64,000 bases of DNA from Sphaerolaimus hirsutus (Eukaryota; Nematoda; Chromadorea; Monhysterida; Sphaerolaimidae). The number at the start of each line of letters is the position of its first letter. Within the stretch, counting starts at the first letter, position 1. The stretch is taken from assembly GCA_964036195.1 (NCBI GenBank), contig OZ038459.1:9855206-9919205 (forward strand), in the 5' to 3' direction. Below the pieces are notes generated by a model that searched no databases, was not told where the DNA came from, and saw only the letters and a list, made by a program, of their open reading frames with translations. Shown in pieces: positions 529 through 53,524 of the stretch. The translations under genes were made by a program, and so were the position numbers.

Positions 529-3500
529 GTGGGTGCATTTGATGGACCCTTTATTTTTACATCAAAATCAAGGTTCTAACACTTCTGTAGGATCTGCGCG
601 AGTACAAGCTGGACTTTCTGCAAGTGCTCAGCGAGCACGAACACTGGCTGCCGCTGTGCCTCCCGGTGCACATCGGCGACGATGGCGCGGTGAAAAGCGG
701 CGGTCCGTTTGATCTCAGTCTCCTCTTTTTTTTGCGTGCAGTTTGTGACCGTGACACTAATCCATAACGAGTGTTCATTCCCTAACGTGTGTAGTGGAGC
801 CAATAGCCGCGGGCACAAACGGCGACGCGACAGACTCCGCCCACCATCGTTCGCCGCACAAAACCGGTGTCGGCGGCGACTCAAACAATTTGCATGCTGA
901 CACCCGTGGCGCGAGTGGAACGAGCTTTATATCGCGATTTGTGTCCGGTTTTTCCAGTGTGGTTGGTGCTATCGCGTCAGCAATGAGACCGGGCGAACCG
1001 TGCTGCAATCCTGGTTTGTTTGTGTGAGGTTGTGTGCTTTTTCTAGATGTTACCCGGGTTGCACTTAACTATAGATTCGGTAGTGTACAGCACCTATTTA
1101 ACCCGGTTGAAAAGTTGCTTTGCTTCATAAATCACGTGAGATTTTCAGCAATGCCAAACAATTTGTAGCAGCAATGCCAATGAAGTTTAGAGACATTTTT
1201 ACCCTTTGTCTTCCCCATATGCCAAATCTCTTCCAACAACCATTCGAGTGACACTTTTTAACCGTCACCCAGTTCAGAAAACACCCGGCTATTTTACCAT
1301 GTGGCCACGTAATTAGGCATGTCAACTCCAAAATCAAAAACAAAATCTATCAATCCAGCAATTCTGCTCCACTCAGACCTGTCGCTCAGCGGCGAGCTGT
1401 CGCTGAGCAGCAGCTACTGCGAGCGGCACTTCCCATCCGGTGTGCTGCTGCAAGAGTTGGTCTACGCTTTGAGAGAGCCTCGATCTAGACGGAGTAGGGC
1501 TATTGGGGTGGTGAGAAACTTGTTAGCGAAGCATGCTGCTGATCCGAGGTATGCTGATGAGGTTGGTTTCTTTTTGGTTATCATGTTTATTTGTCACTGA
1601 GCGTGGCTATGCCAACGATATTTACCTTCATAGTTATTTTTAAAAACAAAAGCAAACTCCGCAAAAATAGCAAAAATAATAGGCAAACTAGCATATTTAT
1701 CCGTAAATAATTTTTTTTAAAGATTTTACTGTATACTCATTTTAGCTTGATATCTTTCTAATTTTTGTCAGCATGTATTTTGTGTTCATGTCTAGCACAA
1801 ACTTTTTTTTCTGCGTTCAATCCTAATCCATTCGCAGGCGAGTCGCGAGCGAATCGGCGCGCTGTACATGCCGCTCATACAGATCATGATGGACCACGTG
1901 CAGGAGTTCGAGCCGGCCATCGCGTCCAGCGCTGGCGCGTCAGAAGCTGTGACCAAACCTCCCCTGCCTGCCAAGGTAAGTGCCACTTTCCATGCAAAGC
2001 CATCAGGTGCCAGTCCCAGACCCTGTAAAATGTCATGTATCTCCTAATATTATTCCATGGTATCCAAATCTTATGTTCATAAGATCTGGATACCATAGAA
2101 TAAGATTCGGATACATACATGACACTTTACAGGGTCTTTCATATGACATTTTAAATTATACAGGGTCTGTGACTGCCCCCAGACTGCCTGGAGAGACACT
2201 GCGTAAATATTCACACTTCACGCACAGCCAAAGTCAATCTCGCACCGCCGGCGGCCGGGCGCCACGTCACCAAGTACTTCAACTTCAACAACGGTCGCCA
2301 GCACCGCCTCCTCCTCTCGCTACAGCACCGACAGCGGCGTTACGTTGCGAGCGGAAACTCCGCCTATTTCGGTGACTGTTGGCACTCCGCGAGCGGCGAG
2401 TAGCGGTGCGGTCGCTTTGAGGCACGGCAGCTTGCAGCCGCCTAGTTTGAGGACTTCTAATTCGGGTGAGTCGAGGTATTTTGTTCATTGCACGATGTTT
2501 CGTCGGGGATAACGCTAAGGGTACTGACACGGACTAAATGCAGTTTTGAAACGAGTGAAGCTTAGTAAGTGATCTTATGTAGAGGTGTGCTATTTAAGAT
2601 TTCTACGGCGAGCAACAGAAAGATACATAAATACTACAAGTTGAAAATCGGTCAAATTACCACGAATAGTGAGGAGAGTATCAATGATGGATATGGATAT
2701 AAGGCAAACTGCAATTATATATACATTATATAATATCCCTTTGGTGCCTTTATACACATTATTGGCGTCGGTAAAAATGTCCATAAAGCGTAAGTATCAG
2801 CAAAATGTACAATATTACGAAACCGGACCGAAGGTCCGGCGAAGAATCCTGCTAGTATTCACATGTGTCGCGTAGACTCAATCCAATCGATGCCGTCTTT
2901 GTCTCTGTCTTTGCGTCTGTCTTTGTTTTTGTTGTTGTTGTCTGTTCCTATAAGGCCCCGCTGCGACCACCGCAGTGCCGCCGTATTGGCCACCGTATTG
3001 GCCACCATAAGCGTTGTATCCGTAGGGATTCAAGGGGTAGGGATGCGCGTAGGGCACCTGCGAGGACACTGGCGCCTGGATGAGGCATTCGCGTTAACTT
3101 TTTGCACTTTTTAAAAATTAAAAGTGACCCCTGATGGTGTGATCCTGCGTAGATAAATACAATAAATTAAGTGAAACGTTTACCTGTACATAAGTGGGCG
3201 CGACGGCCGGCTGCGGCACTGCGTAGACGATCTGCTGCGGGGCGGGGCAAGCTTTCTTGATGTAGTACATCCACATGGTGTCGTATTTGAGGTGTCCATA
3301 ACACGGCACGTAGTAGACCTGTGTGCGTGTGCGTTTTTGTGAGCGTGTGACATCATATTTAAAGGCGGCCCGCACACTAGTTGACACACGTGTGCCAACT
3401 GTTCTGTGTCAACTCAGATTCCGGCTTCACGTATCGCAGAGCGATCTTCAAATGCACTTGCCGTAATATTTATCTTTCAACATTGCCGCATGTGCATTTG

Positions 3501-12500: not shown

Positions 12501-15500
12501 AGGTGGGTGCTTTTGTCACTTTGTCACTCCAACAGAATTAACGATGACAAACAAAAATTCGAAAGCGAAAGACAAATGCACTAAAGACGCTTTAAAAATT
12601 TGAAGCGGCAGAACAAAAAAATTGCAAATGTTGCTGCGGTAAGAGTCCGGAAAGCCATAAAACAACGTCTCAAAATTCAGAAGAAAAATACTAAGCAATA
12701 ATTTAGTGGAAAAAATTCGAATAATCAAAAAGATTGGAAATTCGAGAACTATCCTTGAAAAAATTTCGACATTAGAAAAGTCGCTTTGAGAAAAAAACAC
12801 TAAAAAAAATTTAATCCTTTTTTCGGCGGGGGGGGGGGGGTCGCCATGGTTAAACATAACTACGTTCGAACACCACTCCCAATTTCCCAGCTACGCGGCG
12901 TGCTATCCGCCACGGGCGAACTACGCTCCGTCTCCCACCACGTGCACCGGCAGTGCGAGCTGCACGTGCGGCTGGCCGACGCGTACAAGACTTGCTGCGT
13001 GTCGCTGCGGCACGCCTGGTTGGACAGCCTCGCCCAGCTGCACATGGGCGCCCAGTGCTACACAGAGGCGGCCCTGTGCCACCTACATATTGCTGCCATG
13101 ATGCATAGGGAATTGGTGGCGCAAGGTGTGCTCGGGTTGCGATGACTTGGATTCCTTTTTAGAAGGGATATCACTATCCGTTTCACGTTTTGGGAAATTA
13201 GTACCAAAATATCCTCGAATAAGTCCTTCCCTCGAATAACTCCCCCTTTTAGTGGGAAAAAATAACTCCCGCTCGAATAACTCCCCACACATAAACAATC
13301 CATTCAACCCAGGCATCTACGGCGGCGACTGGCGCCTGTACAGTCTGATCAGTGAGCACGTAGTGCGCGATGAAAACCTCGACCAATTAAGCATCACCGG
13401 GCCGCAGGCGGCCATGGGCGCGTGCCTGCCCGCCGGCTACACGGTGGACCAGTTTTGCGATCGAGTTACCACTGCGGCTGAGTTGCTGATGAGAGCCCAG
13501 AGATTTGAGGCTGTGGGGCCGGTTTATAGGTGGGCGGTTTGGCTCGTTTTTTTTAAGCAGAAATGGATAGCTTACGAATGTTTGGTATTGAGAGGGAAAA
13601 CTATTCTCGATTTGATGGCTGGCTGAGTACTTCACATTTCCCCGCTGAATCTTTGTTTGTTTGGAGAAAAAAACCTATGCTTTTTTCGACAAAATATTCT
13701 TCGCAGATTGATAATTCCAATTTTGGAGCGCGAACGCCGGCACCAAGCTCTAGTCAACACCTACAAGCTTTTGGAGGAGGCGCACAGTTCAGCTGGTAAG
13801 TGTCATAACTGACTTCTATGTATTTCCATTGACGTATTTAGGATTCAATCGGGATCGGGATTGCGATATTCAAATTTCGGTATCGGGACTGCAAATTCCC
13901 GGGATTTTTCGGGATTCGGGATCGGGGTCCCGTTTTGACCCTACATAGACAACACAGTTCGGTTTGCTGACATCAGTCCATTTTACAGCCACATCTGCGG
14001 GTCGCCGCCAGCTGGCCACTTATTACCGGGTGGCCCTTTTCGGCCCGGCCCAGTGGGCCAGCGAGCACGGCAAAGAGTGGGTTTATAAAGAACCCGGCCA
14101 CACTAGTTTGGCCGCGATCGCCGATCGATTGAGAAAACATGCGGTGCTCATTTTGGGTCATCAGAAAATGGAGTTTCTGCCCAATGATGAGCAGGTGGAT
14201 TTGGGAGCGTTGGAAGACTCGATTGCGTATTTACAGGTGAGTAGCATATCTGGTGGCAATATGGCGCACCCTGTAAAGTGTTAAGTCAAATGTCACTCAA
14301 ATTTATCAAATATCATGCTAAATGTCAAAAGTTTGCTGAAATTTTTTAAAATTTCGATCGACATTTTACATTACATATGACACTTTACATGGTGCGGGAC
14401 TGCCCCTTCATGGGGTTGGTTGAGATGATATTTATTTATCTTTGAATATCGGCCAGTTTTTCATCTGACATATGAAATTTTGTGAACATAGCTAATCAAC
14501 TAGGGAAAGTCGTATACTCTCCTATATATTACCGCATATATTACCCGTATATTACCTTTGTCCTTGCGGCCTTAATTGTGTTACTGTTGCGCGTCACGTG
14601 TATTACCGTATCAATGACGTCACAGTAGCTCCACCATCTTAGGTAGCGCACGTGCACCCGGTGGCGTCGAGCAGCTCGCTGGGCTGCGTGCCGGCCGACA
14701 AGTTGGCCATGCTCAGCGCCGCCGAGTTGGACCAGTACGCGACGCACACCAACGTGCGCCGGTTTTGCTACGAGGTCAAAGTGGTGCAGAAGGGGGCGGC
14801 CGACCCGAATGACCCGACCAATGTGGCAGTTAGGAGGGTCACTTTGACTAGTGAGTGTGGGGGACGGCTTTATTGTCATTAATGGGCGTCATTGCTTCCA
14901 TGGAACAGTCCCAGACCCTGTAAAGTGTCAAATGTCATGTAAAATGTCAATCAAAACAAAAAAATAAAACATTTTATTACCGAATATTGCACGACAATTG
15001 ACACTATACTTTACATTTGTCATGACAATTGACACTTTGCATGACATTTTACATGACATTTGATACTTTACTTTACACTTTACAGGGTCTGGGATTGGCA
15101 CTATGTTGAGCGCACCTAAATATGTAGGCTTCCCCTTTATGGCACCGCTTCCACTGAGACGCTTTTCTTGTATAATAGATCGTTTCACTTTCGATCATAA
15201 ATTGAACAGCATGGTTGCGACCAAAGGCTTAGCCTTGTACCTTTCAGAGTTGTTCACAGGGACTTGCAAAGTTGGATCACATATCATTGATATTAATCCA
15301 CTTAAATATTTTCACCCCTCCAAAATCCGCCAACCAATCAAAACACCCCCCCCCCCAGCCGAACGTGCCTTCCCCTCCCTCCAATGTCGTCTACTAGTGT
15401 CCGCCAGATCAGAGCAGGTGCTGTCGCCGCTGCAAGTCGCCGACGAGGAGTTGCGAGTGAAAACGCACGATTTGAGGAAGGTGCTCGCGAACAGGCCCAG

Positions 15501-20537: not shown

Positions 20538-23500
20538 TCGGTCTTGCTTATAATAGGCTTTACACGCTAGCTGGCAGTGACACCAACTGGTTTTTATCCC
20601 AATTCAAAGTTTATTGACTAGTAACGCCACACATCGGTCCGCCACGTTACTGCATACACACTTCATGCCGGTTTTGTACATGCACGAAAGGCAATTTATT
20701 TCAACACTACAGCTTTTTTGGGAACATCATTCAACACTTTTGCATTTGAACGTCATTTGTTGGTTCATCGGCACGCTTTGGATTGCGGTCGGAGCCAGTT
20801 GACGTCATTGTCAACCAGTGCGTGTGTGTAGGGCCATTCTGGCAGTCTCACAGGCAGTGTTTTGCCCTTCGGTGTGTTCGGAAATGCTTATCCCCGATAG
20901 CGGCAAGCCTTGGCGCTCCAACCTTACCGTTGTAGCACGCACTGCTAGTGTTGCATTAGGTACACCGGCATCAAAGCACAACCATGCTTCGCCCACAGCG
21001 CACGCTCCGGGCTGGTCGGCACCAGAAGGACACAACCGCCCTCCGCAGTTGCCCACAACACACAGGACAGGCGTCGCCCCCTTGCCCCTTACAGGTGCCA
21101 ATCCCAAGCCCTGTAAAGTGTTAAGTAAAGTGTCAAATGTAAATTCAAGTGCAAAGTAAAGTGTCAATTGTCATGCGAAGTTCAGTAATAAAATCTTTTC
21201 TTTTTTGTTTTGATTGACACTTTACTTTGCATTTGACTTTACATTTGATACTTTACTTTACACTTTACAGGGTTTGAGACTGCCCCCAGGAAGGCACAGC
21301 AGCCCACTTGGCGTGGCGGCACTGCGACGCCGCGGTTCAGAGTTGGTGCCGATGAATTTGGGCAGTTCAAAGTGAACAAGCGCGTGCGGAGACTATCCTA
21401 TCTGAATGGTGGTGAGACGATTTTTGTGGAGTTTAGAAGTCGAATCTTGTGGTTGCAAGGTCGACACGCTCATGAAGATTCTGGTTCATATATCAGATGT
21501 TCTGGGGCGTGTGACTAAATTTAATGAGCTGTACAAGTCTGGAGTCTTTGATAGGCAAGCCAATCATAAAATGCTAAATATCGATAGTGTAGTATCGACC
21601 CACACATAACAGTATGACAAAAAAATCACAAATATATTTTTATTGCAAATAAATTTTGTGTTTATCTGGTCAATGTTGAGAAGTTGACTGAAACATGCAC
21701 AAAATTGCAGACACAAATGGCGATACCAGCGAACGGCCATTGACAACAAAGGCCAGATCGTACACATCATGTGGAACATCATCCGCGTCGAGAAACAATG
21801 GCAATGGCATTGCGCAGCACAAGAAGCACACGCAGCTGCAGCACTGGTGGCAGCACGGCGGCGCCGACAACCTACACCCTGACCAGTTCATGCCGTCGCT
21901 CACGTTCAGCTCGCAGCAGATGCAGTCGGGCGGCCGGGCGGCCAAAAGGGCCAATGCGAATGCGCACGACGACTTGCCGGGTAGATTTTGTTGGCTAAAA
22001 AGAAAAGTGTCAAGTCTGTATACCTACCGTATTTCCTCGAAATACCTCCCTTGAATTACTCTCCCCCCCCCACGGAAAACCCCAGGTATGAACAAGCTGA
22101 GGAAAAATAACCCCCTCGAAATACGCCCCCTCTGGAATAGGGTACATCATGTATGCAATTGTTATACATGATGTATTTATTGCTTCCAATTTGCATCGCA
22201 GCTACACATAGCCTAGATTGTGTAGCTATCTACGTTGATAAATAGGTATGTCTTATTGTCTTTATATACCTATCATTCCGGTTATGTTTATTACCAGTTT
22301 TGGGTATGTAAAATGCCATTCTGTCCTACGATCCTGGTGAATTTTGGGTTAAATGATTAACCCACCTTGAATGAGCCGCACCACCTCGAAATACTTTAAC
22401 TCTGAAAAAATAAACCCCCTGGGGGTATTTCGAGTAAATACGATAAGTTAAATTACCGGGCGTCATTTACTCAGCGCACGCCTTGCGCGTTGAAAGTCAC
22501 GATGATGGCAGCGGCATGCTGGTGGACCAACGCGACCAGTGGGGAAATACGCCGCTCACCGAGAATGATGTCATACAGTGAGTGAATTGACTATGATAGA
22601 ATGTCTAATAAAAAATATGGAGATTCAAATTGTACGATAATAAATTTCTAGTTTTTCACTATAAAATTTATAAAAAGTCAGTAACTGTAGTTACCAGTGA
22701 GAAACTGTAACTTTCCTCCAAACGCATGTTCAACGATTTTTGACATTGTTGGCAAGGTGACAACATAAGACTTTCACTCACCCCCCCCCATTTTCCGGCA
22801 CCTGCTAACACTGTGCATGTCGTCGCCGCTGGGCCGACTGCACGTGCAGCAGCAGATCGTGTCGCAAACACTGGCTCTAGCCTCAGAACCAGTGCAGAGG
22901 GCCTACGCCATGTGGCGCGTGGGCGGCTTGCGACAGTGGAAGTTGGTGCTCGCCATGCAGGGGGCCTTTTTGGTGCCCGTTCAGGGCGCCGGCGGCGCGG
23001 TGAGGTCCATTTTTGATAGGCAGTTAAAGTTGAGTCAGACATTGATTTCGCGGATCCATTCGATTTTCCAGGCGTCTGTGATGGGCTTCGGGGACAGCGG
23101 GCCGGGCAGACCGATGACCGAACGCTGGGAACCCATGCATCCGTATAACATCAGGAATCTGGACGACTTGGCCGTGTGCGTGACAAATGCTCTCCCTCAT
23201 AACGCTTAATAATCATATTTAGTTGTGAAAACATATTCAGGTTTACTCGAAAAATACGTATACTCGAGTACTGAGTAAATACGTCTACGTTTCCTCTGAA
23301 AAAAGTACCTGTACTTACATTTACGTGTACTTTTTGAAAGTACGCGAGTACAGAAAACGTATTTTAAAGGGCATTTGCAGGCATTGCCTATAACACAAAA
23401 GTAAAGAAACCTTGTAAAATTGTAAAAAAATACGTTTAGAGTGAAAAACACAACTCTGATGCCTTCCAGTGTAAAAATTGACAGAAACTTTTACATTTTC

Positions 23501-24632
23501 TGTGAGAATACAAAGTCGCTTTTATGTGTTCCGTGAGAAAAAATACTCGCTTTTACGTTTTCTATGGAAAAAATGTTATTTTACCCTTTACGCAGTGTAT
23601 AAGTAAAAGTAAATTTTTCCTTCTTCTGTACTTGGGGGAGATTGGAAAAGGTTCAGCACTCTCAAAAACTCCGCTAATAACTCAATTCTACCCCGCTCAG
23701 CTACATGCAAGCGCTCCTGACGCACTTCGGCCCCTTGTCAGCGCGCGCGCCCCCCATACAAATGCTGCGCGCCATATTGCCGCAGCCAGTGCGTCGCAAG
23801 ACTTTCGAACAGTTGGTGCACGGCTTGCAGAGGCGACTCGACCAGGTGCCAGTCCCGGAGCCTGTAACGTGCCCTGTAAAATATCAAATGTCATGCAAAG
23901 TGTCAAAAGTCATGGAAAATGCCCTGCAAAATGGCAAACGTTCGTTTGCCATTTTGCAGGGCATTTTCCATGACTTTTGACACTTTGCATGACATTTGAT
24001 ATTTTACAGGGCACTTTACAGGCTCTGGGAGTGCCCCCAGCTAGTTGTGGTCGAGCAGATTTTCTATCTACTCAATTTGCATGAGGTAATGTTTTGGTTT
24101 TGCGATTTTTTTATTTATATTTGAGTATACTCGGCGGACCGCAAAGTATGCGCAGAATCCTACTATTATTTTATGAATAAAATCTTGTGATAAATTTCTA
24201 GTAATTAATTTTTTCATAGTAAAGACGAAATATTATGATGACAAAAATGCATAATCGTTGGTTCTTTATTCAGATGGGTTATGGTAGGTTTCCATACTAA
24301 GTGTGACGTCCGCCGAGTATTTACATGTGTTATTATTTATTGTCGTGTTGAAATGGAAAATTTCATTTATAGCACCAAGATGCTCTGAGAGAAAAGCTGG
24401 CCGCCTGTGTGATTTCTGATGTTTGACCAATGTTTGTGGCAGCGGCATCATTGCTCGTGGTTTGGCTATTTTAGATGGTGCATACATTACAGATTGAAAT
24501 TTATCCTTACTGGCGATTGCATTTGATTTAAAACGTTTACGACTTCTGTTTCAGTTTTTTTCTTCATTTGTGGCGCAAATATCACAATGGAAGAATGAAT
24601 CGGGAAGCATATTTACAAATATAATTATATGA
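20301..24632 (+). CDS. Unrecognised multi-exon gene with introner-like introns
   Basis: I do not recognise this protein. The proposed start ATG at 20301 opens an acidic, Ser-rich, low-complexity N-terminus (MSSNSAESRLASDKSEHDTT). The middle (21290-22577) is polar, with Asn, Gln, His and Ser runs and WRGGTATPRFRVGADEFGQF. The C-terminal half (22850-24632) is helical in composition and looks like a folded domain: SQTLALASEPVQRAYAMWRV, GGLRQWKLVLAMQGAFLVPV, MQALLTHFGPLSARAPPIQM, LVVVEQIFYLLNLHE. Exons from 21290 to 22577 and from 23701 to 24632 join with matching phases. The joins at 20537-21094, 21094-21290 and 22577-22850 are not resolved. No membrane segment is seen. It ends 700 bp from the convergent leucine-rich receptor gene. 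Confidence 0.6.
20556..20835. mobile_element. Diverged TTGACA-family MITE
   Basis: Left end GGCTTTACACGCTAGCTGG and right end AACCAGTGCGTGTGTGTAGG are diverged inverted copies of the family ends. It would lie in an intron of the unknown gene. Confidence 0.5.
20951..21094 (+). CDS. Unknown gene, exon before first introner-like intron
   Basis: The donor at 21095 is the first base of a 195-bp foldback element. The frame ending in phase 2 (DRRRPLAPY) joins the next exon and is open back to a TAG at about 20950. A competing frame is open for longer (from 20818) and is rich in Ala, Pro, Ser and Thr, but it ends in phase 1 and would hit a stop downstream. The start and frame are therefore provisional. 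Confidence 0.4.
21095..21289 (+). mobile_element. Introner-like foldback that forms a whole intron (195 bp)
   Basis: Begins GTGCCAATCCCAAGCCCTG directly after an exon and ends TTTGAGACTGCCCCCAG directly before one. Arms of repeated AAGTGTCAAATG-type units are inverted around an AT-rich centre. The intron limits equal the element limits. Confidence 0.8.
21290..21411 (+). CDS. Unknown gene, exon after first introner-like intron
   Basis: Starts in phase 2 and ends in phase 1 with donor gtgaga. Encodes KAQQPTWRGGTATPRFRVG and FGQFKVNKRVRRLSYLNG. Its phase matches the exon at 21711. Confidence 0.7.
21711..21980 (+). CDS. Unknown gene, polar Asn/Gln/His-rich exon
   Basis: Phase 1 at both ends. 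Encodes DTSERPLTTKARSYTSCG, QHKKHTQLQHWWQHGGADNL and HPDQFMPSLTFSSQQMQSGG. A long uninterrupted frame with coding-like composition. Confidence 0.7.
22027..22445. mobile_element. TACCGTATTTCC-family MITE in unknown gene intron
   Basis: TACCGTATTTCCTCGAAATA on the left and GGGGTATTTCGAGTAAATAC on the right, with several CCCCTCGAAATAC units inside. Confidence 0.75.
22475..22577 (+). CDS. Unknown gene, short exon
   Basis: Phase 1 to phase 2 (donor gtgagt). Encodes AHALRVESHDDGSGMLVDQR and DQWGNTPLTENDVI. The preceding intron is filled by a TACCGTATTTCC transposon (about 22027-22445). Confidence 0.65.
22850..23175 (+). CDS. Unknown gene, core helical exon
   Basis: Encodes QQIVSQTLALASEPVQRAYA, WKLVLAMQGAFLVPVQGAGG, FDRQLKLSQTLISRIHSIFQ and RWEPMHPYNIRNLDDLAV; the donor gtgcgt at 23176 gives phase 2 and joins the exon at 23701. 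The frame is open further back to 22770, so the start could be earlier. An acceptor with the phase required by the 22577 donor was not found, so a small exon may be missing. Confidence 0.65.
23220..23675. mobile_element. hAT-like MITE in unknown gene intron
   Basis: AGTTGTGAAAAC at the left, then TACTCGAAAAATACGTATAC and CTCGAGTACTGAGTAAATAC units, and a right part ending in TTCAGCACT. Same family as 11446. Confidence 0.65.
23701..23845 (+). CDS. Unknown gene, exon before second introner-like intron
   Basis: Starts in phase 2, ends in phase 0. Encodes YMQALLTHFGPLSARAPPIQ and TFEQLVHGLQRRLDQ. The exon ends exactly where the 195-bp foldback begins. Confidence 0.8.
23846..24040 (+). mobile_element. 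Introner-like foldback that forms a whole intron (195 bp), near-perfect palindrome
   Basis: Begins GTGCCAGTCCCGG and ends GGGAGTGCCCCCAG. The two arms are near-perfect inverted copies meeting at GCAAACG-TT-CGTTTGC (23934-23949). Exons on both sides read through in phase 0. Confidence 0.85.
24041..24085 (+). CDS. Unknown gene, 15-codon exon after second introner-like intron
   Basis: Encodes LVVVEQIFYLLNLHE in phase 0 between the end of the foldback and donor gtaatg. Joined to the previous exon it continues one amphipathic helix, which supports the foldback being a true intron. Confidence 0.8.
24127..24320. mobile_element. ATACTCGGCGGAC-family MITE in unknown gene intron
   Basis: Terminal inverted repeats ATACTCGGCGGAC and GTCCGCCGAGTAT; inner CGCAAAGTATGCGC and ACGAAATATTATGATGA. 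Confidence 0.8.
24555..24632 (+). CDS. Unknown gene, last exon
   Basis: After acceptor gtttcag, phase 0: FFSSFVAQISQWKNESGS, then an Ile-rich end and TGA at 24630-24632. It continues the helix-rich pattern. An AATAAA lies about 75 bases downstream. Confidence 0.6.
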   Translation, partial: FFSSFVAQISQWKNESGSIFTNIII

Positions 24633-40912: not shown

Positions 40913-41552
40913 ACTTTAACATGTTGTGGAATGTAACATGCCGCCATGGGAATCTGACATGTTGCGGAAACTGACATGCCAAAAGGTGAATGTAACATGT
41001 CTAGCGTGAATGTAACATGCCAAGCTCAAAGGTGAATCTAACATGCGAAGCGTGAAACTGACAAGCCCTGCACATGTGGTCGCAATGCATTCAATTTTTC
41101 CAAACAATAGTTTTCAAATTTTTGAATACTTTTGAGTACTTTTTGAATTTTTTAATCTTTTTGATTACTTTACAAATTTTTTTCACTAAATTTTTGCATT
41201 TTCAAATTTTCTAGAAAAAAATTGGGGGGTTTTCTAGGGGTGAAATAAAAATTTGAAAAATTTGGATATTCAAATTTTGAATTCAAACTCAAAAAATTTT
41301 GAATTCAAAATTTGAGAAATTGACAAACATGGTGATAATGATTGATCACTGATCATTATTTCATGCACATGAGACATGCCTCATACCAAATATGTAGGGC
41401 ATGTCAGCTTTACGCTTCTCATGTTAGTTTCACCTTTGTGCCGGGCATGTTAAATTCACTCTGGACATGTTACATTCACCTTTTGGCATGTCAGTTTCCA
41501 CAACATGTCAGATTCCCATGACGGCATGTTATGTTCCACAACATGTTAAAGT
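40913..41552. mobile_element. Long-arm foldback element with ACATG units
   Basis: The left arm (ACTTTAACATGTTGTGGAAT, then GAATCTGACATG, AACTGACATGCCAAAAGG) recurs inverted at the right (CCTTTTGGCATGTCAGTTTC through ACATGTTAAAGT). Each arm is over 100 bp. The centre is A/T-rich with AAAATTTGAA units. Confidence 0.85.
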
Positions 41553-50680: not shown

Positions 50681-51869
50681 ATTTTCGTTCAAATGTTAAG
50701 TAGAATGCATATTAAATACATTGTATGAAGGATATTAAATTAGATGAGGAAAAAACTGCCACAAAAATCAAGCAATCATTTGCTGTAAGCCAAACACCCT
50801 ACAGAAATGTGGCCACACAAACTGGTTTTCAATGTTCCTTTTTGAAAACTCTTCTGGGCAACGCGTCGCTGTATGGTTTTCAAAAGTGTGCAATTTGCAC
50901 TTTTATTTTTCAATAAGTGACAGCATATGTGAATATTGGTTTCGGCAAGTCACATTTGTTGTTCAAAGTTCACATTTGCAGAACATATTTGAAAACTGTA
51001 GGGTGACGTGTCGCCTCTGTAGCGGCGACGCCTCGCCAACATAATACTCTGAAGACAATTTTGAAAACTTAAAATTGAATAATGTAGTTTTCAAAAATAT
51101 ACATTCCAGTTTTCAAATGTAAAAAACATTTTTGAAAACTGAACATGGAGGGTGATGTACAGCGACATATGGCGACGTCGCTGTACGTTGCTGTACATGC
51201 CAGTTTTCAATATCTGTGCAACATATGTGAAAATGTATCGCCGTACACACCAAAAGTAGCAAAATCGTCGCCCAGCATCACCAGTTTACAAAATTTTGCC
51301 AACTTACTCCAAAATCCCTTAAAAACCACTGGATGAATGGGTTCATGTAAAATTGACACTGTAGATGCAGTATTTTTTGCGGCATCTAATGATAGAATTT
51401 ATATAAAATAAAAAAATTTTGTTTTAAATTATGTCGCTGTGGCTACATTTCAGGCGACAACTGCATATGTCACCTGTTTCCATAACTTATTACCAATTTT
51501 GAAAAGTATTTATAAAATGAAAGAATTGATGCATTTATCAACAACACAGAATCTGGGACTTGGTCCTACTGTTATGAAGGGTTCAAAGGCACAACTACCG
51601 GTTAAATTTGTGTGGATAATGCAATGATTATGAATGATCTTGCATTACAGATCGTCCCATGCACGCTGCTGTGTAGAATGCGTTTTTGGGATTTTGGCTG
51701 CTCGGTGGCACATCCTGCTAATGAAAATTTCAATGGAACTACACAGGGTCAGCAAACTGGTTATGGCTGCGTGTTATATGCACAATTTTATCAAATAATT
51801 GCGTGGCACAAATGTATCGGATCACTTTGACAAGGGAGGAAATGAAAAGCCACCTGTGGGTAGGGTGTC

Positions 51870-52140
51870 AAATTTCCGTTTCCGTTTTCCGTTTCCGCCT
51901 TTCCGCAGGAAAATTTTTTACCTTTCCGTTTTCCGTTTTCCGGCAGCCAAAAAATTTTTACCTTTCCGTTTTCCGTTTTCCGGCAGCCTAAAAATTTTTA
52001 CCTTTCCGTTTTCCGTTTTCCGGCAGCTGAAAATTTTTTACCTTTCCGTTTCCGTTTTTCCGGCCCATTTTTCCGTTTTCCGGCTGAAAAATTTTTACCT
52101 TTCCATTTCCGTTTTACCAGGCCATTTTTCCATTTTCTGG
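51870..52140 (+). repeat. TTTCCGTTTTCCGG minisatellite, left block
   Basis: Units of about 46 bp (ACCTTTCCGTTTTCCGTTTT, then CCGGCAGCC and a poly-A/T linker) repeated five or six times with slight changes. Confidence 0.85.
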
Positions 52141-53524
52141 CTCGATTTTCAGTTTTCTGGCATTTTTCCATTGTTTTTCCAATCTGTATTTATCTTCAAT
52201 TGGCTCATCCCATTGTGTTGTTTTTGTCTCTTGGAGCAGCATTGACAACTGGGATTTCAGGGTCAGTGAAACAGGTGCTGTGAACCCAATTGGGTCATAT
52301 GCTGACACCAATAATTTATTCAAGTTTTGTCTGGTTGGTGTTGTGATGCTTTCAATTTGCAATTTTGGTGTTGATATTGCCAGCATGTCCGTTCGGTGAT
52401 TTTATTTCATGCCCATTACTGCGACAATTTTATTCACCTTTGGACTCCTGTTCTTTTCTGCTATTTCATTCATGACTGATCTGGAGTTTGACAGCCATTC
52501 CCTCATGTTCATAGAACATTGGTTAAATAAAGCTTTGACTTTGTAATAAAGTTCTAATATACACTTTGTAATATCGTGACACTCATGATGAAGTTATTGA
52601 CATAAATGTTGTTTATTATCATTGCCAACTGGTTTCGTTCCCCTTCATTTTCTTTCATCATATTCATATTCATTCGTGTTGTTTATTGTCACATTTAAAT
52701 GGTATTTTATGACTGCTCCCAAAATTGCTGGGCTGCAGACAAGTCCAAACAGTACGCATCTAAAACAAAGTACTATTAAGTTATTTTCAGTTACTGGTTT
52801 TGAGGCATCTTTCAGCCGGAAAAATCATGTGTAGTCTCTAGCTTGGTCATGCAATCTTATTTGCAAAAATGCCTTTTCAATATCAGCAATTAATGCTAGA
52901 TTGCCTGCCCTGGACCTCAGGAGTAGCCCAGTGCTAATGGTGTTGTAATTGGTCCTCTAAAAGGCACTTGTTGAAACTGGGCTTACCTGCCGACCCATCA
53001 TACACAATTCTGCATGATGTTGATTTGCCCGGCGTGATTACTGGCTGGTGTGGCAGGTAATGAATCCCCTTGTTGTCTGTTTTGTCATCACAGATCTCAA
53101 TTATTCCCTTTTCTAGTTGGTTGTCCAAAACTTTCCGGTATTGTTCGAATAAGTTTGGATCTTTGTTGAATCTTCTTATCAGTGATTTAAACCGCACCAA
53201 AGCTTCTGCTTTTCCCGTGGGCATGTCACTGATACTCTCTTTATACGGCCAGTCAATATAGTATTGTTTGTTGTTGTCGTTGAATTTTATGCTATTTATT
53301 ATCATCTCCTCTGCAATGTTGTCTTCAATTGCATAGGGGTCATCAGTGATTCCCACTGCTTCTAGACTGTGAAATTGTCGTAGTGTTTCCTTTCCTATGG
53401 CCACTATGGCTATAGGAAAGGACTTTTGATGATTTGTTGTTGGTTCAGTTGAGCTTGAACTACAAGTGACGTTACAGGCATGATCCATAGTTGCAGAATG
53501 TACAGCTACCACAATCAAAGCCAA
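52114..53524 (-). pseudogene. Decayed BEL/Pao retrotransposon polyprotein fragment (reverse transcriptase region)
   Basis: The upstream frame (52934-53524) has the stretch before the reverse transcriptase core typical of Pao-type elements, including a YLPHQPVI block and RIVYDGSA. A motif resembling the catalytic ADIEKAFLQI block is seen in a shifted frame near 52880, and SAYDPIGFTAPVSL of the region after the RT core is in 52114-52386. Several stops and frame changes separate these, so it cannot be functional. No LTRs, protease, RNase H or integrase are visible; only this internal piece is present. Confidence 0.8.

Follow-up and report, generated by a model that had tools for sequence, protein, structure and literature searches.

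How can a near-perfect palindrome come to fill exactly the space between two stretches of open coding sequence, and does it serve there as an intron? The question arose in a window of 64,000 nucleotides from the nematode Sphaerolaimus hirsutus (contig OZ038459.1, positions 9,855,206 to 9,919,205, forward strand), which also encodes the DHR-2 domain of a DOCK protein. At 23846..24037, on the plus strand, the window carries a palindromic element of 192 nt that starts with GTGCC, ends with GCCCC and lies between two CAG trinucleotides (23843..23845 and 24038..24040, plus strand). Read 5′ to 3′, the element is GTGCCAGTCCC...GGGAGTGCCCC, and the sequence passes from GACCAG into GTGCCAGTCCC at one limit and from GGGAGTGCCCCCAG into CTAGTTGTG at the other. 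The original prediction described one foldback with arms of about 90 nt and a loop of 2 nt. This was borne out by the inverted-repeat comparison: the aligned arms (23845–23940, of which 23846..23940 belongs to the element, and 23943..24038) are 96 nt each and 95% complementary, with 2 nt between them. The long RNA hairpin expected from this structure has a predicted folding energy of −166.2 kcal/mol for 23840–24046 (z −23.5 against 200 shuffles).

The flanking exons had been described as reading straight through, and the frame RRLDQ-LVVVEQIFYLLNLHE is indeed open in phase 0 on both sides; it becomes continuous in that phase when the element and one CAG are omitted. The predicted upstream exon (23701..23845, plus strand, after CCCCGCTCAG) would end with the first CAG, and the predicted downstream exon (24041..24085, plus strand, before GTAATG) would follow the second, both boundaries being set by eye. 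The GT at 23846..23847, which comes from the element, is the predicted donor, and the AG of the second CAG is the predicted acceptor. The joined exons had no match in Pfam and a single one in PDB (E 0.82). Since no match names the window gene, the splicing predicted at this element is argued from the reading frame and from the family to which the element belongs.

This family is large. The genome search for further copies, proposed with the original prediction, found the exact 23-nt 5′ end GGTGCCANTCCCRGANCCTGTAA 1,895 + 1,853 = 3,748 times in 348 Mb and the reversed control pattern 0 times. The shorter pattern CWG-GTGCCANTCC occurs 8,897 times genome-wide, its control 13 times. In a DNA search with the window element, in which the best 40 of 2,771 candidates were scored, at least 81 places matched, with identities of 87–100% save for one short piece; as expected of a palindrome, many of them appear in both orientations. 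From loci L001–L080 we collected 87 distinct copies with both ends, of which 70 are 142–198 nt long, two are shorter and 15 are longer (up to 435 nt), the family length being about 192 nt. Genome search and copy comparison together confirmed the GGTGCC start and the GCCCCC end as common to related elements. Sequence likeness among the copies stops at a CWG trinucleotide on both sides. The same element occupies the same place in two pairs of duplicated stretches (L067/L069 and L005/L017), and therefore some insertions predate the duplication.

Two further copies with both ends lie in the window, each with CAG on both sides and each on the plus strand. The copy at 2007..2179 may be situated inside a longer intron, a GTAAGT being seen by eye just upstream; the copy at 21095..21286 represents a subfamily reading CCCAAGCCC. 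A second subfamily, reading CCCAAGCCCTGTAAAGTGTAAAG, was found in all four of the flank classes described below, and its listed copies look much alike. Larger or broken relatives of the element occupy 14352–15102, where inverted repeats start with the same CCCAGACCCTGTAAAG motif and an AGTGCC-ended copy lies on the minus strand.

What kind of element is this? Among the 87 copies the flanking trinucleotides were CAG/CAG in 31, CTG/CTG in 15, CTG/CAG in 7, CAG/CTG in 2 and others in 32. Strict genome-wide patterns gave 654, 426, 208 and 62 for the same four classes, with 0 in all controls, and we treat their sum as 1,350 full-length copies. The two flanks agree in 1,080 of the 1,350, where independence of the two sides would predict 686 (654 + 426 vs 208 + 62: odds ratio 21.6, p 1.6e-119). 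The family is a non-autonomous DNA transposon, a MITE, that has terminal inverted repeats, lacks coding capacity and leaves a target-site duplication of 3 bp, CWG. The claim that the element supplies both splice sites thus held for GT and failed for AG. The last two bases of the predicted intron belong to the duplicated CWG, so the element brings only GT; a 3′ CAG carried by the element itself is ruled out by the many copies with CTG.

Among known transposons the family resembles NuwaI, of the PHIS (PIF/Harbinger) superfamily, which is defined by CWG duplications, has terminal inverted repeats usually starting with GGG, and in the study concerned is found in animals only (PMC4482050). The present family shares the CWG duplication, the inverted repeats and an animal host, and one of its ends, read inward, is GGGGCA. 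It differs in that the other end, read inward, is GTGCCA rather than GGG, in having no transposase inside the element, and in its predicted intron role, which is absent from the description of NuwaI in the cited part of that study (PMC4482050). A change at one NuwaI-like end may have created the donor. The transposase would be provided in trans by another element, which in the case of NuwaI would encode a DDE transposase and a Myb/SANT protein. The DDE_Tnp_4 domain has at least 163 matches in the genome, and most of those listed have nearly equal scores and four TGA codons within the match. This pattern suggests that a single transposon, its gene either broken or bearing an intron, multiplied in a recent burst. 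Near the two DDE_Tnp_4 copies examined, at C1:2.16 and 2.19 Mb, there was no GTGCC end.

If copies of this MITE act as introns, then coding sequence should be restored when the element and one CWG are removed. We joined 34 fragments from 29 copies, picked by eye, and ran them against Pfam. Above the cutoff, matches continued across the junction for VWA (L022), for Oscp1 at two elements of one gene (L065:2001 and L065:2836) and for DHC_N1 (L011, 5.8e-23), and an Ion_trans match (L007) extended one residue past it. On one side only there were LRR_6 (L048), Neur_chan_LBD (L020) and TSP_1 (L005), the latter two starting at the junction, and a PDB match to cyclin B downstream of the copy at L008. 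A Frag1 match (L027) is weak evidence, because it lies below the cutoff, spreads 42 residues over 39 positions and comes with an AG in frame at 9. The other joined fragments gave no Pfam match or weak ones of doubtful meaning. The genes at copies elsewhere in the genome include a Cys-loop receptor, OSCP1, a dynein and a class B GPCR, which, like the DOCK domain of the window, indicate an animal.

Orientation points the same way. In an open-frame test of copies with 3′ CAG (n = 45) the frame was longer in sense in 18 and in antisense in 5, with 22 ties. Genome-wide, CAG exceeds CTG on the 3′ side (862 vs 488, p 1.7e-24) and slightly on the 5′ side (716 vs 634, p 0.03). Likeness among the copies extends to the predicted splice limits, as in introners, and removal of the element with one CWG makes the domains at L022, L065 (two elements) and L011 continuous. 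The introner reading of the original prediction, in which a palindromic transposon gave rise to an intron, is well supported. Firm are the existence of the transposon, the CWG duplication and the exact fit to coding sequence at the named loci; splicing of the copies, and above all splicing at TG, is a prediction from sequence.

Bursts of intron gain are explained by introners, and we consider with a probability of roughly 85% that the element of the window is one: a NuwaI-like MITE of the PIF/Harbinger group that inserts at CWG and duplicates it. For the spliceosome the GT of the element would be the donor and the second copy of the target the acceptor, and the length of the mRNA would remain unchanged because this second copy serves as the end of the intron. 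The acceptor would be AG at former CAG sites and TG, less efficient, at former CTG sites. The 96-bp stem would bring the two splice sites close to each other and may aid a weak acceptor, and TG acceptors would later be replaced by AG.

Introns rarely end in TG. In 426 of the 1,350 copies both flanks are CTG, and the predicted intron would end in TG; if AG were the sole working acceptor, such copies should be rare in sense exons. In the OSCP1-like gene of L065 a CTG/CTG copy is placed between MDKLYDL and MTMACKYQ. Pfam aligns 42 residues on 42 positions over this junction (E 4.4e-17), and the element contains three in-frame stops. Four CTG/CTG copies (L081–L084) were drawn from the list regardless of context, and three of them (L081, L083, L084) have an open phase-0 frame in sense, the antisense frames being open there too. 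The copy at L081 interrupts a class B GPCR in its last transmembrane helix, between GSVMGLL and AATVYCFNN. All 30 of its PDB matches to E 1 are class B GPCRs (best E 0.005), the junction is ungapped in the three alignments shown, and with a longer query 27 of 29 matches were to this class; Pfam gave no match for L081. Two sense-coding copies with 3′ CTG, in OSCP1 and in the GPCR, are found within conserved motifs.

Has the acceptor base changed since insertion? Among copies with 5′ CTG the middle base on the 3′ side is T in 426, A in 208 and C or G in 28; among those with 5′ CAG it is A in 654, T in 62 and C or G in 10; and 27 copies with 3′ CAG have C[C/G]G on the 5′ side. CTG/CAG thus outnumbers CAG/CTG by 208 to 62 (p 1.3e-19). 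The explanation that we prefer is that TG is a poor acceptor and that selection favours its replacement by AG. Alternatively, some of the 208 may have started as CAG/CAG copies in which the exonic A became T, and the 62 CAG/CTG copies also exceed the 10 with C or G among 5′ CAG copies. A change of T to A just before the donor would likewise better that site, giving CAG before GT.

The strand of coding was also scored by codon use, with a score trained on 1,073 codons, the own locus being left out, and applied to the 89 of 91 copies with enough flank; 19 of these were classed as ‘other’ (3′ trinucleotide shifted or changed) and 4 as ‘degraded’. A self-trained coding score was dropped, as it tracked GC content. 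The codon score is low for the Pfam-supported L022 and L048 and mis-calls some copies (by eye, L025:312 and L074:3634 look better in sense). The first orientation of the copies followed the score, and some, such as L007, were later reversed; because the palindrome is ambiguous and some copies were reoriented, flank-class counts differ slightly between tallies. At a cut-off of 7.5, 12 of 21 copies with 3′ CTG pass, 11 in sense and 1 in antisense (p 0.006), and 11 of 45 with 3′ CAG pass, 7 in sense and 4 in antisense. When CTG and CAG codons contribute nothing to the score, the ratio of sense to antisense is 5 to 0 for 3′ CTG (7 to 1 at cut-off 5) and 5 to 1 for 3′ CAG (6 to 3 at cut-off 5); random CTG sites in the same loci are 42–46% sense at those cut-offs. 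The open-frame test showed little strand bias for 3′ CTG copies (7 sense, 4 antisense, 10 ties). The sense bias of these copies in the codon score is suggestive, not proof.

We infer that GT-TG introns formed at CTG copies and later became GT-AG. In its full form this reading holds that one family is a mass source of GT-TG introns in an animal with otherwise GT-AG-looking introns, that the 96-bp stem permits the TG end, that selection turns TG to AG and that all stages are present in the genome. We hold it tentatively, at a little short of even odds, and our confidence is lowered by the weak strand bias of CTG copies and by an in-frame GT at offset 23 of the element. This GT bears on another possibility, to which we give some weight but which we think doubtful: that CAG copies are ordinary GT-AG introners and that exonic CTG copies either splice poorly and are mildly harmful or use a different AG, one within the element or a little way into the exon, GT-TG introns being unused. 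The GT at offset 23 is present in 17 of 55 good copies and, with an AG 19 nt before the exon, would keep the frame and add 42 nt, and the weak open-frame bias of CTG copies also fits. All 11 sense-coding copies with 3′ CTG contain at least one in-frame stop; in 3 of them an AG lies in frame 9 nt before the exon, and of the remaining 8, which lack one in the last 40 nt of the element, 6 have one within 60 nt of the exon. In L076 and L077, however, there is none even at that distance, and AGs in the exon would remove conserved residues in OSCP1 (L065) and in the GPCR (L081). The common AGs, 19 nt before the exon in all 55 good copies and 31 nt before it in 39, were rejected as usual acceptors, since the frame is lost when they are paired with the GTs that occur most often (offsets 0, 18, 30 and 37). 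The GT at offset 18 (GTAAAA) is a possible internal donor, and its use would add six in-frame codons.

Two other explanations dispense with the element's role as a spliceosomal intron. The hairpin, and not the letters of the splice sites, could direct removal, by hairpin-guided or non-spliceosomal excision of RNA or by excision of DNA. The very stable predicted stem does end at the duplicated site, and Amoebophrya has introners, likewise with hairpins and with direct repeats, whose removal takes place at non-canonical sites (PMC7789003, in the part cited). Two findings nevertheless point to the spliceosome: AG prevails on the 3′ side, and T to A changes are in excess there. The few other introns read by eye, those of the OSCP1-like gene included, look GT-AG; we regard such excision as improbable. 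It is still harder to believe that an ordinary MITE lies within older introns or between genes and fits exon limits by chance. Several copies do lie in AT-rich DNA without sign of coding, but at the named loci the limits of the element match domain continuity exactly, and the frames are open on both sides of the window copy.

It is established that introners with terminal inverted repeats and target-site duplications can co-opt one splice site; among animals, the 2022 survey found them in only two groups (PMC9860276). The present family resembles them as a short repeat that probably became an intron, with terminal repeats and a duplication, one predicted splice site from the target and an mRNA that would keep its length, but the cited part of the survey text contains no CWG duplication and no TG acceptor. 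The introners of Amoebophrya, according to the sections cited, share hairpin-forming inverted repeats, direct repeats at exon limits (3–5 nt there) and non-canonical splice sites; they belong, however, to a dinoflagellate parasite and comprise many families and splice-site letters, whereas here one family has a fixed GT and a predicted acceptor AG or TG (PMC7789003). In human GT-TG introns the TG acceptor is used by the U2-type spliceosome; the cases in the cited part are single, whereas hundreds of copies of one transposon are candidates here (PMC4176328). Tunicates likewise have animal introns outside GT/AG, and introner transposons with weak splice sites are named there as a possible source; in the part cited, 95% of introns escape GT/AG, in contrast to the GT-AG-looking introns read by eye here (PMC13326754). 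In the open-access literature we found neither a NuwaI-derived introner nor mass GT-TG introns in print. Introners being already known, the present family would be a variant with a NuwaI-like origin and putative TG acceptors.

A CWG target reads as CAG or as CTG depending on the strand, and the same element would therefore yield an AG or a TG acceptor in a natural experiment. Such a family allows one to gauge the strictness of the 3′ splice site, the help given by the stem and the speed at which a poor acceptor is repaired. If the reading of mass GT-TG introns is true, the genome holds introns at every step from fresh insertion to canonical intron.

Some other features of the window were noted. 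There are 200 N in the whole window, with a run of N at about 16.1–16.5 kb. A separate inverted repeat at 40913–41552, with arms of 168 nt that are 89% complementary and 304 nt apart, belongs by eye to another family. At 51799–52283 the reading frames are rich in a repeated phenylalanine/proline motif, probably a tandem repeat.
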